Source of the DNA: Candidatus Bathyarchaeota archaeon
Lineage (GTDB): Archaea > Thermoproteota > Bathyarchaeia > 40CM-2-53-6 > RBG-13-38-9
NCBI GenBank assembly: GCA_018396915.1
Contig: JAGTRD010000005.1
Span: forward strand, 1 to 61,827
DNA: 61,827 nt
Reading direction: 5' to 3'
Part shown: in pieces, positions 5,299 through 33,545 of the stretch
Layout of the letters: each line of letters starts with the position of its first letter
Numbering within the stretch: the first letter of the stretch is position 1
Notes under the pieces: model-generated
Database searches by the model: none
Told to the model about the DNA's origin: nothing
The model's input: only the letters and a program-made list of their open reading frames with translations
Position numbers and translations under genes: made by a program

Positions 5299-5530
5299 GG
5301 AACCACCGTGATACAATATATATCAATCGTATCATATAAACCATACCGAATGCCATGTCTTTCCAACGAAGGAATACCTCAACTCACCCATAATTATCCA
5401 TCCTTCTGGGCATTATCAATACACGTAAAGCAAGGTTCTTTGTCAAAAACAGCCTAGAATCAAACCCTAATTGGTAAAATGGCGCCGGGAGTGGGATTTG
5501 AACCCACGAGGCCCCAAGGGACCACAGGCT

Positions 5531-5542
5531 GTCAAGCCCCTT
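5531..5542 (-). other. tRNA-Ser(GGA) intron 2, canonical position 37/38, 12 bases
   Basis: After CTGGAG the sequence AAGGGGCTTGAC interrupts the loop before A38. The central helix is relaxed (three of four pairs, CTGG with CTTG) and the intron is very short. Removing it gives a standard seven-base anticodon loop with G37. Confidence 0.65.
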
Positions 5543-5550
5543 CTCCAGGC

Positions 5551-5568
5551 TTGGGCTCAATGCTGGAT
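5551..5568 (-). other. tRNA-Ser(GGA) intron 1, position 29/30, 18 bases
   Basis: The BHB can be drawn as exon GGGC, bulge AG/A (slash marks the cut), a short inner TC/GA helix, intron GCCC pairing with GGGC, then bulge AA/G. Cutting there joins CAG to GC and restores the anticodon stem. The same bulge sequences occur at the same position in the second tRNA-Ser of the window. Confidence 0.75.
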
Positions 5569-5661
5569 CTGCCCCGTACCAGGCTCGGGAATCCCGGCTG
5601 CTACACTTGCGTATTGATTATGTTCTTTCAGAAATATTTGGTTTGAGGTTAAAAGTTCTAT

Positions 5662-25171: not shown

Positions 25172-26650
25172 TCAGCCTTTACTCACACCTATCGGGACGA
25201 GTCTCGCTACTTTTACGGCTATGCCAAGCCTGTGGCTCACCTCAGCAATCCTGTCAACATCCTTGTAGGCTCCTGGAGCCTCCTCACTGACGACAGCCAT
25301 ACTTGCAGCCCTCACCAAAACACCCTGCTTCTCCAAGCTTCTCTTAACGTCCTCCCCCCAGTAACGTTTCTTGGCTGCGGCTCTGCTCAGACTCCTTCCA
25401 GCACCGTGTGCTGTTGAGCCGAAACTCAACTCCATAGACTTCTCTGTTCCAACGAGAACCCATGATGATGTCCCCATACTTCCAGGTATGAGGACCGGTT
25501 GACCGACACTGCGATATTTTGTGGGTATGGAGTGATGATTCGTAGGGAAGGCTCTCGTCGCGCCTTTCCTATGGACGTAAACCTTCACCACCCTCCCATC
25601 AACCTTATGCTCCTCTATCTTCGCAATATTGTGGGCGACATCATAGATAAGCTGCAGACCCATCTCATCTGCAGGTCTGTTGAAGACCTTCATGAAAGCC
25701 TCCCTCGTCCAGTGTGTTATCATCTGCCTGTTAGCCCAGGCGAAGTTGCATGCGGCAGCCATAGCTGGATAATAATCCTCAGCCTCAGGGCTCTTACCTG
25801 GGGCGCAGGCCAACTCCCTATCAGGCAGGTCTATACCATACTTTCTGACAGCCCTATCCATAACCTGCAGGTAGTCACTGCAAACCTGATGGCCTAAACC
25901 CCTACTCCCTGTATGGATGAATATCAGAATCTGCCCTGGACCGGTTATGCCGAAGGCTTTCGCAGCCTCCTCATCATAGACCGAGTCGACCTTCTCAACC
26001 TCCAAGAAATGGTTTCCACTCCCCAAACTCCCAAGTTGAGGTGAACCCCTAGACTTCGCAGTTGATGAGACCTTGCTAGGATCAGCCTCATCCATACAAC
26101 CCTCCTCCTCACATGAATATTTATCCTCAGACCATCCGTATCCCCTATCTATAGCCCACTCAACCCCATCTGAGAGGACCTTGTCGAGCTCAGTCTGGCT
26201 GACCTTAATCTGCCCCCTACTCCCTAAACCTGAAGGTATATAGTTGAAGAGTGTGTCAAGAAGCTTGGGGAGGATAGGCTTAACATCAGACTCTGAGAGG
26301 TCGGTTCTCAGCAGACGCACGCCGCAGTTAATGTCGTAGCCGACTCCTCCTGGACTCAATACGCCTTCGTCGTAGTCTGTTGCAGCTACGCCTCCTATTG
26401 GGAAGCCGTATCCTTCATGGCCGTCTGGAAGTGTTATTGAGTAGCGGTATATTCCTGGTAGGTGTGCGACGTTTGCACATTGCTCCAGAGTTCTGTCTAG
26501 CTTCATCTTCTCCAGAAGGAGTTCGTCGGCATATACTCTTCCAGGAACCTTCATACCTCTCTGGAATGATTGAGGTATCTCCCATATGTTGCTGTCTATT
26601 CTCTTAAGCTCTACTTGTTTAGTTGGTCTTCTGGATTCTCCCTCAGACAT
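25172..26650 (-). CDS. rtcB: RNA-splicing ligase RtcB
   Basis: 492 residues, joining 2',3'-cyclic phosphate and 5'-OH RNA ends with GTP, for example tRNA exons after intron removal. Metal ligands are visible: Asp and Cys in GGVGYDINCGVR, His in GSGNHFLEVE, His in FIHTGSRGLGHQ, and His in YDVAHNIAK. The guanylated His is in STAHGAGRSLSR. There is no intein. Archease is encoded 159 bases upstream on the same strand. The spliced cbf5 and tRNA-Ser transcripts of this window are expected substrates. Confidence 0.96.
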   Translation of the reverse strand: MSEGESRRPTKQVELKRIDSNIWEIPQSFQRGMKVPGRVYADELLLEKMKLDRTLEQCANVAHLPGIYRYSITLPDGHEGYGFPIGGVAATDYDEGVLSPGGVGYDINCGVRLLRTDLSESDVKPILPKLLDTLFNYIPSGLGSRGQIKVSQTELDKVLSDGVEWAIDRGYGWSEDKYSCEEEGCMDEADPSKVSSTAKSRGSPQLGSLGSGNHFLEVEKVDSVYDEEAAKAFGITGPGQILIFIHTGSRGLGHQVCSDYLQVMDRAVRKYGIDLPDRELACAPGKSPEAEDYYPAMAAACNFAWANRQMITHWTREAFMKVFNRPADEMGLQLIYDVAHNIAKIEEHKVDGRVVKVYVHRKGATRAFPTNHHSIPTKYRSVGQPVLIPGSMGTSSWVLVGTEKSMELSFGSTAHGAGRSLSRAAAKKRYWGEDVKRSLEKQGVLVRAASMAVVSEEAPGAYKDVDRIAEVSHRLGIAVKVARLVPIGVSKG

Positions 26651-26809: not shown

Positions 26810-27256
26810 TTAGAGGTCTAGAAGGAAGCGTAGCCTCCAGTAACCTTCCAGAAATTTTATCTCCATCATGTGGAAGGTGACTGCTTTAACCTCAGTCTTT
26901 GATATATGCCTCTCAGGATCATAGTCCTCACCATATATCTTTGCTCTAAGGTAGATGTGTTCACCTTCATCGTCTGAAATCTCCACTATGAATCTTGAGT
27001 AGAGCCTATTCTCAACATCGCATCTTACCAGCAAGGTTTCGAGCCAGGAGTAGAGTAAGGATTCGAGGTCGTGGCCTTCAACCTCGACGCTCTCCTCGAT
27101 CTTCGGTTCAACCTTAGACGTGTCTGTCATAACCTCAAACATTGCCAAAGCCGAGTTGGCGAAGGCCTCACTCAGACTCTTTCCGTAGGCCTCGATGTAT
27201 GCGTCTCCGGTATGCTCTAGAAACTTGAAGCTCCCCATATCTTCAGGCTGAACCAT
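26810..27256 (-). CDS. archease, RtcB activator
   Basis: 148 residues: FKFLEHTGDAYIEAYGKSLS and ALAMFEVMTDTSKVEP at the N terminus, LLYSWLETLLVRCDVEN in the middle, and AVTFHMMEIKFLEGYWRLRF at the end, all archease signatures. The acidic metal-binding residues include the Asp of HTGDAY and the terminal Asp of FLLDL. It speeds RtcB guanylation. Start GTG/ATG 27254-27256, though ATG 27238 (MGSFKF) is also possible. Confidence 0.92.
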   Translation of the reverse strand: MVQPEDMGSFKFLEHTGDAYIEAYGKSLSEAFANSALAMFEVMTDTSKVEPKIEESVEVEGHDLESLLYSWLETLLVRCDVENRLYSRFIVEISDDEGEHIYLRAKIYGEDYDPERHISKTEVKAVTFHMMEIKFLEGYWRLRFLLDL

Positions 27257-27725: not shown

Positions 27726-27780
27726 CCGTCAACTCTCATGACAAGACTTATTTCCTGAATAACTGGTGAGATGCCAAACA

Positions 27781-27790
27781 ATTTTATAGT
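27781..27790 (+). promoter_or_regulatory. TATA box of tRNA-Ser(TGA)
   Basis: ATTTTATAGT lies about 25-30 bases before the mature 5' end at 27813, the standard archaeal spacing. Confidence 0.55.
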
Positions 27791-27830
27791 CAAGTTGTTT
27801 AAGCAGATATTAGCCGGGATGGCCGAGTGG

Positions 27831-27860
27831 ATCAACCGTAAGAGTTGAAAAGGGTCCAAA
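27831..27860 (+). other. tRNA-Ser(TGA) D-loop intron, boundaries ambiguous
   Basis: TCAAC (27832-27836) and GTTGA (27844-27848) form a perfect hairpin around seven bases. One reading removes 27831-27854 and leaves a normal loop with TCCAAA. Another removes 27834-27860, using the helix TGGA/TCCA with bulges TC/A and AA/G, but leaves a D loop without A21. I cannot choose between them. Confidence 0.55.
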
Positions 27861-27867
27861 GGCGCAG

Positions 27868-27883
27868 AGCAACCCACGCGTAA
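27868..27883 (+). other. tRNA-Ser(TGA) intron at position 29/30, 16 bases
   Basis: Exon GCGC pairs with intron GCGT. The bulges are AG/A and AA/G, the same as in tRNA-Ser(GGA) intron 1. Cutting joins CAG with GCC and completes the anticodon stem. Confidence 0.75.
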
Positions 27884-27891
27884 GCCTTGAG

Positions 27892-27908
27892 TAAACCTGA
27901 AAAAAGTG
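27892..27908 (+). other. tRNA-Ser(TGA) canonical 37/38 intron, 17 bases
   Basis: After CTTGAG, the segment TAAACCTGAAAAAAGTG precedes A38 and the 3' stem GCCTG. Pairing of CTT with AAG gives a relaxed central helix. Confidence 0.68.
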
Positions 27909-28033
27909 AGCCTGTGGCCCTTCAGGGCCTCGAGGGTTCGAATCCCTCTCCCGGCGCCATAATCCAAGCCAGATAACAGGTAGGATACCCATGTATTCTC
28001 AAAATTCTTGTAACTTCAAGAGGCCTATCCATG

Positions 28034-30341: not shown

Positions 30342-33300
30342 TTGACGCTTAGAGTTCTTACTGTATTCATAGTCTTATTACTTGTTCAGGGGATGCTACA
30401 TAAGGTGGAGGGCCACTACACTCTGGGTTTTCAAGGGTTAAATGGTCCTGAGACTCCTATGGGTGACCGCATAAACTCTTTGCCTGGCGGACACTCATCT
30501 GGACATGTAGCTTATGTTCAGCCTGGAAGCCTCTATATGCCGCCTGCCCTTCAAGGTAACTATTATTCACCCAACGGATCGGTGATAGTGGATACTGTTG
30601 GCGACCTGTATTTCTACATAAACGTCTCATCCACAGTTGGACCTATAAACGTAACATGGGAGTTGAACCTTCACTTCGGAAGTTGGCTATACATAGCGAT
30701 CCCTCCAGAGTTTAACCCTCCTTCAGGTTGGGATACATTCATAGGTGGAAACTCAACCTACGTATGGTCCACAATAACTAATGATAGATTCCATATTGAG
30801 ACTGGGAAGTTCCCTGCAAGACATCCTCTGGCTCCGGAATGGTGGTACATCAGAATATCAGCTCCGAACACAACCTATACGGGGTCGAATCCAGCTTGGG
30901 CAGGTAGATCGTCAGGATTTCTATATCCTGCGGGCGATGATCCTTGGTTGGATAGGCAACTGAAGACTGGGCCTTTCAAAGGTTGCTACGAGGTCGTGGC
31001 TTATGGGGTTAAGGCTCCGAGCTGCTCTGGGAAATATTTCTTCAAGATTTTCTACACCTCAGGCTACGTCAACGGCGTCTGGGAGAACTACACATCCTTT
31101 CCACCTGAGAATTATCCTGTCATCCTAGTTAAGGGAGAGGTGGATCCAGGCTACATCTCAGGAAGGGTAAGGTATGGTGGGCACTCACAGTATTATTATG
31201 GTTACTATTATGGGTCGGGGGTTAGGGCTCCAGGGATGGTGATAGCTAATGGAACAGCTATAGACCCCTTAACCAATAAGCCTACGGGTCGAAGAGTATG
31301 TGGTGTAGGATACTTCAACATGACATCTGAGGGTTTCTATGAGATCGAGGGTTTAGCCCCTGGAATATACAGCCTTACAGCATACGCCGAAGGTTTTGAA
31401 CCCAAGACTCTGGCGAGATCGGTTACTGTGAAGAGGGGCCAGTCTATAACTGGTGTAGACATATATATTCAGCCAGGGGCCAAGATTCAACTCAGAGTAT
31501 TCTCGAAGTGTCCTACGGGGCCGGTCGACTGGCCGAGCTACGTAACATTCGGATACAACACTACAGTGCCCCTAAACCCTGTTGGGAGCCTCCTAGCCAC
31601 ATACAATATGAGCGGGTATAAGGGTTGGCCTTGGGGCCTAGTATATCTCGAGGTTAGAGACCATTCTGGTAGAACCATCTCCTACGATTGCCAGTACTGG
31701 AATATCACAGCGAACCCTAGGGACTTCACTGTGTATCTTGGTGACCCGAAATGTTACAGGGGGGTTGGAAGCAGATGGGACGGCCACATCCCCGACGGCC
31801 CAGCCCACTTCATCTCCGGTCTTGCTGGAGGAGTATACTACGTGACGGTGAACGTCTTCGGGTATGTTCAGCCTAAACCTCTCAGAGTTGAGATTCCAAA
31901 ACATGGATATACTGGAGCAGTTTACGCTGAGTTGGATTTGATGAAGGCAGGCACGATAGAGGTTACAGTCCACTTCCATAGTAGAGAGATGCCTTCGAAA
32001 CCATCGCCGCCGGTCCTTTCAGGGGATCTCGTGATCGAAGCCTACGACTCAGCTGGACGGTTGAGGGGATGGAACTATACCAGCCTCACGGCGGGCTCCA
32101 GTACAAACGTCACCCTCAAAATCATCGGCGAGTCAATACTCGTTACCAGAAACATCCTGAACGGTCTACCTGAAGACACATATACGATAAAGGTCTGGTA
32201 TCCAGGGTATGTCCAGCAAGAGTATCCGCAGGTTCAAGCATCCCTATGCAGCAGCAGCTACCTGAGCTTACACTTCATTAAGGGAGCGAACATAACGGGA
32301 ACCCTATACTCAAGAGACTGGCAGGATCCATCTCAACCTATTCCTTGGCAGCATCCAGGCCGAGAGATCTTGATAAGGGCGGTAGACAAGTTGGGCTACG
32401 CATATGGTGCCAATACTCTTCCAATCACTCAAGTGGCAGGCTCAAGCAATGTTTCCTTCAACGTCTGGGGGTGGGACAGTATAATCGCCAATTATTTGAG
32501 GTTCAACTGGATATCGAGGGGCCTCCCCTCAGGATTCTATTGTATCGAAGCATATACTGTCGGCTATGTTCAGAAGAATTTCAACTACGTCTGGGTTCAG
32601 AAAGGTGTAGACGCAACAGATGTCCCGGTCTATATTCATGTCGGCGCCACAATACTTGTTACAGTAGACTTCAAGACCGAGAATATTCCTGCACCTCTGC
32701 CCAGCGATCACTGGAGCTACTACTTCAGAATAGAGGCTTACGATGTCGCCGGCCGTCTCGTAGCTGCAAACATCACGGCTGTCAACCAGTCTACAACGGT
32801 TGGAGACCAGTTGAATCCAGCCCAACCCTCAGGTGTTAGGTCATGGACCTTCATGCTGCAAGGATTCAACGGCTTCACCACACCAACAAACCATGTGCCA
32901 GCCCTTAGGAAGGGTTACCATTCAGCCAGATACGCTAAGCCGGACATTGTCCAAGGAGATTACCTGGATTATGGGATTCCGCCTGGAACATATACTATCG
33001 CTGTTCGAGAGGAGACTGAAGGTCTGATCTCCCGCTACATCCAAATGGTGAGGTTGTCTGTGAGGGTTGAGGGTATGGTGAAGGTTCAGGTGATCCTGCA
33101 GATGGATGAGCAAGCTCTGATAGACGGTTATGTCTGGGTTAGGAACTGGATCGGAGACTATAGGGTAGCTTCTTGGCTTCAGATAAGAACGTTGGAACCT
33201 GCAGGTACAATATATACTTCCAAATCTATCGACGGATACTATGGGATCCGTGTTCCAAGTGGAGATTACAAGATAGCTGTTGAGTTGACCCCACCTGGCG

Positions 33301-33545
33301 GGGATGCTGGCTACTTCAGAGGGGTGAGGAGTGTCTCTGCGTCTTGGGGTTCAAGTGTGAATGGTCAAGACTTTTATTTGGACGAGAGCGGAATAGCAAT
33401 TCCAGAATTCAGCGCCATGAATCTACTTCTCATTCTAACAGTTGCACTAACCCTCATAATCTCAAGTTTTCTTTCTGAATCTCCATACAAGACATATAGA
33501 AGCTGCAATAATGGCCGAGGCTATTCCAATAATCGAGGGATGTAG
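30342..33545 (+). CDS. large secreted multi-domain protein with PEF-CTERM-like anchor
   Basis: 1067 residues. A signal peptide (VLTVFIVLLLVQGML) is followed by a beta-rich N-terminal region, then several carboxypeptidase-regulatory-like (transthyretin-like) domains, e.g. ISGRVRYGGH and EGLAPGIYSLTAYAEGF. The motif GYVQ recurs at the end of three of these units (VFGYVQPK, WYPGYVQQ, TVGYVQKN). Near the C terminus IPEFSAMNLLLILTVALTLI is a membrane anchor preceded by PEF, like archaeal sorting signals. A 23-residue tail after it overlaps the converging gene by 84 bases, so the last codons may be affected by a frameshift. Start TTG 30342; likely S-layer-associated. Confidence 0.75.
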   Translation: MTLRVLTVFIVLLLVQGMLHKVEGHYTLGFQGLNGPETPMGDRINSLPGGHSSGHVAYVQPGSLYMPPALQGNYYSPNGSVIVDTVGDLYFYINVSSTVGPINVTWELNLHFGSWLYIAIPPEFNPPSGWDTFIGGNSTYVWSTITNDRFHIETGKFPARHPLAPEWWYIRISAPNTTYTGSNPAWAGRSSGFLYPAGDDPWLDRQLKTGPFKGCYEVVAYGVKAPSCSGKYFFKIFYTSGYVNGVWENYTSFPPENYPVILVKGEVDPGYISGRVRYGGHSQYYYGYYYGSGVRAPGMVIANGTAIDPLTNKPTGRRVCGVGYFNMTSEGFYEIEGLAPGIYSLTAYAEGFEPKTLARSVTVKRGQSITGVDIYIQPGAKIQLRVFSKCPTGPVDWPSYVTFGYNTTVPLNPVGSLLATYNMSGYKGWPWGLVYLEVRDHSGRTISYDCQYWNITANPRDFTVYLGDPKCYRGVGSRWDGHIPDGPAHFISGLAGGVYYVTVNVFGYVQPKPLRVEIPKHGYTGAVYAELDLMKAGTIEVTVHFHSREMPSKPSPPVLSGDLVIEAYDSAGRLRGWNYTSLTAGSSTNVTLKIIGESILVTRNILNGLPEDTYTIKVWYPGYVQQEYPQVQASLCSSSYLSLHFIKGANITGTLYSRDWQDPSQPIPWQHPGREILIRAVDKLGYAYGANTLPITQVAGSSNVSFNVWGWDSIIANYLRFNWISRGLPSGFYCIEAYTVGYVQKNFNYVWVQKGVDATDVPVYIHVGATILVTVDFKTENIPAPLPSDHWSYYFRIEAYDVAGRLVAANITAVNQSTTVGDQLNPAQPSGVRSWTFMLQGFNGFTTPTNHVPALRKGYHSARYAKPDIVQGDYLDYGIPPGTYTIAVREETEGLISRYIQMVRLSVRVEGMVKVQVILQMDEQALIDGYVWVRNWIGDYRVASWLQIRTLEPAGTIYTSKSIDGYYGIRVPSGDYKIAVELTPPGGDAGYFRGVRSVSASWGSSVNGQDFYLDESGIAIPEFSAMNLLLILTVALTLIISSFLSESPYKTYRSCNNGRGYSNNRGM

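Follow-up and report, generated by a model that had tools for sequence, protein, structure and literature searches.

The window analysed here, a stretch of 61,827 nucleotides that is contig 5 of a metagenome-assembled genome, very probably carries a functional tRNA-Ser(UGA) gene, apparently the only copy, into which three archaeal introns of the bulge-helix-bulge (BHB) type are inserted. As read from the sequence and by a parser that scores BHB geometry, the gene occupies positions 27813-27959 of the forward strand (147 nt, three introns), and its spliced product is a class II tRNA of 89 nt with an encoded CCA (Table 1). The preliminary description had proposed a 147-base tRNA-Ser(TGA) gene with insertions in the D loop, at 29/30 and at 37/38, and its coordinates and sites held in our parses. 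It had also placed the D-loop and 29/30 introns 10-15 bases apart, but the exon between them is 8 nt long. The bulges read CA-A and AA-A at the 21/22 intron and AG-A and AA-G at the 29/30 intron, while the 37/38 boundary is ambiguous by one base (G37). The last exon holds the long variable arm, the T arm, the 3' strand of the acceptor, the discriminator G and the CCA.

Table 1. Features of the tRNA-Ser(UGA) gene and its surroundings, with further interrupted tRNA genes of the same genome. Locations are window positions unless a contig is named.
Feature	Location	Strand	Description
RtcB, tRNA-splicing ligase	25172..26650	-	492 aa; Pfam PF01139, E 3e-175
Archease, RtcB co-factor	26810..27256	-	148 aa; Pfam PF01951, E 3e-45
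Putative archaeal promoter	27776..27788	+	BRE-like AAACA and TATA box ATTTTATA, -37 to -25
Exon 1	27813..27834	+	tRNA positions 1-21; from all parses
Intron 1	27835..27859	+	21/22, D loop, 25 nt; BHB helix GGAU/GUCC
Exon 2	27860..27867	+	positions 22-29, 8 nt
Intron 2	27868..27883	+	29/30, 16 nt; BHB helix GCGC/GCGU
Exon 3	27884..27891	+	positions 30-37; anticodon UGA
Intron 3	27892..27908	+	37/38, the canonical site, 17 nt; relaxed BHB CUUG/AAAG
Exon 4	27909..27959	+	positions 38-76
tRNA-Ser(GGA)	5480..5598	-	two introns: 29/30 (18 nt), 37/38 (12 nt)
tRNA-Asn(GUU), L021	own genome, contig C34		three introns: 8/9, about 30/31, 37/38
tRNA-Leu(UAA), L024	own genome, contig C14		three introns: 15/16, about 30/31, 37/38

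The main parser was a dynamic programming routine in which introns were allowed and BHB geometry was scored. A second parser worked without any tRNA sequence template, from cloverleaf pairing, BHB rules and a few invariant bases alone, and it returned the identical three introns. Its score of 39.4 was not equalled by any of 240 dinucleotide shuffles that kept the acceptor and T arm (mean 31.2, maximum 38.8); the best shuffle came near the real score, hence this is a modest test taken alone. When the gene was aligned with the intronless tRNA-Ser(UGA) gene of a genome in the same order (G011) and BHB geometry was ignored, the insertions were exactly 25, 16 and 17 nt long, though where precisely the D-loop and 37/38 introns begin and end then still depends on the BHB. 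An earlier sequence-only aligner was dropped for misplacing these same two boundaries, and its successor has a BHB term.

Removal of the introns restores a standard tRNA: ARAGORN called the spliced sequence tRNA-Ser(tga), and intronless orthologues exist (L161 and L166). Run without introns on the unspliced gene, ARAGORN found no tRNA, and the whole window gave no match by ARAGORN or by Rfam at the gathering threshold. With introns allowed (-i), the unspliced gene was miscalled as tRNA-Phe. If the gene were a different tRNA, for instance tRNA-Phe(GAA) with one intron, then this call would be correct. However, it excises the wrong bases and overlooks the class II variable arm, and relatives with fewer or no introns but the same exons (L161, L166) are unambiguously Ser(UGA), leaving this identification with a negligible chance of being right. 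The exons of the tRNA-Ser(UGA) gene are collinear within the 147 nt, so that it is neither a split nor a permuted tRNA gene, and the introns, at 16-25 nt and with no Rfam match, are not of the self-splicing group I kind with its large catalytic core.

The decisive evidence is comparative. Genes of relatives were located by DNA similarity and then parsed, a comparison with related genomes that had been proposed beforehand. Within the family (f1) the gene came from eight genomes, G000, G001, G002 and G004-G008, and all eight share the 21/22, 29/30 and 37/38 introns; G003 stands outside this count, having yielded its Ser(GGA) gene only. Across the family the exons are 89-99% identical, whereas the introns are 47-83% identical. 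Measured against G000, exon identity was 98.9% in G001, 95.5% in G005, 94.4% in G006, 91.0% in G008 and 88.8% in G004 (79-88 of 89 positions), and intron identity was 83%, 59%, 60%, 58% and 47%, respectively.

Outside the family the intron sets differ, and a natural empty site is therefore found for each of the three introns. Within the same order, two families (f2 and f5) are without the 29/30 intron; most members of f3 are without 37/38 and have an extra intron at 8/9, giving the set 8/9, 21/22 and 29/30; f6 has introns at 8/9, 21/22 and 37/38; and in f4 two genomes, G011 and G019, have intronless Ser(UGA) genes (L161 and L166). Elsewhere in the class, the genes read in f13 carry 37/38 only, and f21 and part of f9 carry 8/9, 21/22 and 37/38. 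The 29/30 site is empty in L038-L040 (CAG-GCC), the 37/38 site in L043-L045 (CTTGAG-AGCC), and the 21/22 intron is missing from L041, L161 and L166. Two gapped patterns run over 257 genomes of the class found no Ser(UGA) gene with four introns (8/9 plus 29/30 and 37/38), the patterns being exact, so that variants in divergent exons would escape them. The f4 Ser(GGA) genes keep two introns though their Ser(UGA) genes have none, which may reflect secondary loss or gene replacement. The Ser(GGA) genes of G061, G099 and G082 (L182, L197 and L253) also have three introns, at the other sites 15/16, 29/30 and 37/38.

These comparisons bear directly on the D-loop insert. From sequence alone its position is ambiguous, although, given a mature D loop of GGAUCAAGGC, it can be placed to within about 1 nt even when the BHB is disregarded. 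One could suppose that there are just two introns, at 29/30 and 37/38, and that the D-loop insert is retained as an enlarged mature D loop. A conserved long D loop was what the preliminary description had named as the observation that would contradict it. Instead, the introns diverge, the insert varies in sequence and in length (13-27 nt) between relatives, and it is missing from f4 and f13 genes. Its end also co-varies with exon bases (GGAU/GUCC, GGAC/GUCU, GGAU/AUCU), and an insert recurs at this place in eight families. We consider retention of the insert very unlikely and treat all three inserts as introns.

The strength of the BHB helices differs between the three sites. In the window gene the central helix forms four pairs at 21/22, four at 29/30 and three of four at 37/38, with one mismatch. 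The expectation of BHB-like folds at every intron was thus borne out for the first two, and at 37/38 only a relaxed form is present. Shuffling the introns of the window gene gave p values of 0.002 (21/22), 0.007 (29/30) and about 0.10 (37/38). Combined over families by Fisher's method, the values were 5e-10 for 21/22 (eight families), 4e-4 for 29/30 (three families) and 3e-6 for 37/38, all leaning towards the BHB in that the boundaries had partly been picked using it. The 21/22 central helix beat shuffles in most genomes, and the 37/38 BHB is weak (2-3 of 4 pairs) in several family members.

A stronger test comes from the 29/30 site, where in the window gene the sequence by itself allows a single boundary. 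Among 30 Ser introns at this site, the exon types GCGC, GGGC and GAGC are matched by intron strands GCGU/G, GCCC/U and GCUC/U. All 30 pair exon base 25 with its partner in the intron (C-G in 11, G-C in 12, A-T in 7), and 118 of 120 helix pairs are formed. None of 20,000 permutations did as well, a figure that is not a strict probability, related sequences each having been counted separately. In secondary-structure ensembles of the precursor the strict BHBs are minor states, and thermodynamic modelling by itself would fail to predict them.

Could the gene be a decayed pseudogene or relic, its tRNA-Ser(UGA) being supplied by another gene? Gene finders overlook it, and the 1.63-Mb genome is about 96% complete in 42 contigs. 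Against this, the exons are strongly constrained, the promoter is kept, and the search of the genome gave no further Ser(UGA) match. The promoter element lies at an equal distance upstream in G001, G002 and G005-G008, while the adjacent bases diverge. We found one gene each for the Ser isoacceptors UGA, GGA, CGA and GCU, and tRNA-Ser(UGA) is apparently single-copy, with the qualification that a 42-contig assembly might miss a second, intronless one. UCA is the top serine codon: among window ORFs of at least 200 codons, some of which may be spurious, it accounts for 238 of 829 serine codons. Since each isoacceptor has one gene and UCA is the most used codon, the tRNA-Ser(UGA) gene is probably indispensable, and we regard decay as highly improbable.

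The genome encodes enzymes that fit a functional, intron-containing gene. The adjoining RtcB and archease genes lie 0.5-2.6 kb upstream of the tRNA gene on the opposite strand. On the other side, an ORF of 1067 aa (window 30342-33545, forward strand) combines a signal-like N terminus with a hydrophobic segment at the C-terminal end and possibly encodes a secreted or surface protein. Two separate EndA genes encode a catalytic alpha subunit of 183 aa and a divergent beta subunit of 192 aa, in whose sequence no catalytic His was seen. The alpha subunit is close to structures from Crenarchaeota (A. pernix 3P1Z is among the nearest that have been solved). Its extra stretch YGKPVGIPKP aligns with the A. 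pernix loop YGQPLDVEKP and retains the Lys, which we take to be the critical residue. The crenarchaeal EndA loop and its Lys confer broad specificity (PMC6379350). The two-gene arrangement agrees with an EndA of the (alpha-beta)2 type, whose broad specificity is predicted to cover relaxed as well as non-canonical BHBs. The initial reading of three BHB-type introns is thus backed by conservation, empty sites and covariation, together with a fitting set of splicing enzymes.

We infer the following course of expression. The conserved TATA box, 25 nt upstream, probably directs the start of transcription, and the transcript would fold so that a BHB can form at each intron-exon junction. An (alpha-beta)2-type EndA would cleave both bulges of every BHB, and RtcB with archease would join the exons into the 89-nt tRNA. 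The 29/30 BHB uses exon bases 24-27, which belong to the mature D stem and anticodon stem, and therefore competes with both. If these bases pair with the intron, the two stems are excluded, so the 29/30 intron would probably be removed early, restoring the anticodon stem for the 37/38 BHB. In a folding model at 65 C, the 37/38 BHB became more probable once the 29/30 intron was gone, and the 29/30 BHB became less probable once the D-loop intron was gone, each in all six family genomes tested; these ensembles were read for the direction of change only, their absolute probabilities being low and 65 C perhaps not matching the growth temperature. That the order of excision may matter, as was initially suggested, is thus plausible, and early departure of the 29/30 intron is weakly favoured by the model. 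Ordered splicing has a precedent in C. merolae (PMC9602550), and for tRNAscan-SE 2.0 it was noted that one intron may need to go before another BHB forms (PMC8450103).

The closest named relatives of RtcB are Ca. Bathyarchaeota genomes (69% identity or less), which places the host in or near the Bathyarchaeia; the same relatives do not place it in the Thermoproteales. Parser and hand reading together found introns in 26 of 29 recovered tRNA genes, about 49 in total or about 1.7 per gene; these counts are computational and come from an incomplete tRNA set (loci L001-L030 and L141-L154). Variable-arm introns returned by a generic parser in class II tRNAs were judged artefacts. In G004, of the same family, many tRNA genes are similarly stretched in length. 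Pyrobaculum calidifontis, with 71 introns in 46 genes, has the reported archaeal record (PMC8450103); the intron density of the host is comparable to or above it.

Several consequences follow for this lineage. Because the standard gene finders used either miss or misname the tRNA-Ser(UGA) gene, genomes of this kind would seem to lack part of their serine decoding. For four intron sites of a single tRNA, the lineage offers a natural record of gain and loss; it also provides a compact substrate, with BHBs competing against the mature stems, on which splicing order is directly testable. It also tests, outside the Thermoproteales, the proposal that (alpha-beta)2 EndA permits intron spread. We suggest tentatively, rating the chances somewhat below even, that extreme tRNA disruption has a second, independent centre in the Bathyarchaeia, with a family-wide density at least equal to the record and an obligate order in which the 29/30 intron leaves before the D and anticodon stems form.

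In archaea, tRNA genes carrying as many as three introns have been described mostly from the Thermoproteales (PMC4033280, PMC4390854, PMC8450103), among them tRNA-Glu(UUC) of P. calidifontis and tRNA-Pro(UGG) of P. islandicum (Sugahara et al. 2008, as quoted in PMC4390854). The preliminary description was right about this literature, but such genes are not rare in the present lineage. Like the Thermoproteales genes, those studied here are interrupted up to three times by short BHB introns, at canonical as well as non-canonical sites, in an intron-rich genome with an (alpha-beta)2 EndA, here predicted from two genes. Unlike them, they belong to another archaeal class, the tRNA concerned is tRNA-Ser(UGA), its three introns are fixed throughout a family, and relatives swap to the sets 8/9, 21/22 and 29/30 or 8/9, 21/22 and 37/38. 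Ca. Caldiarchaeum subterraneum is likewise uncultivated, outside the Thermoproteales and endowed with multi-intron tRNAs including D-arm sites, but it has introns in 13 of 45 tRNA genes, several in three (PMC3293823), as against 26 of 29 recovered here. The tRNA-Ile(UAU) gene of Cyanidioschyzon merolae also combines three introns with D-arm and anticodon-arm BHBs, and its anticodon intron is the last to be removed; it differs in being eukaryotic, in having a T-arm rather than a 29/30 intron, and in its eukaryotic endonuclease and ligation (PMC9602550). In the openly accessible literature we found no report of tRNA introns in Bathyarchaeia or of four-intron archaeal tRNAs. Three-intron tRNA genes are thus already known from the Thermoproteales and algae, and the window gene fits them except in its taxonomic position. 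What is new is the lineage, the family-wide fixation, the roughly 1.7 introns per recovered tRNA gene, and the interchangeable use by relatives of four sites, up to three per gene.
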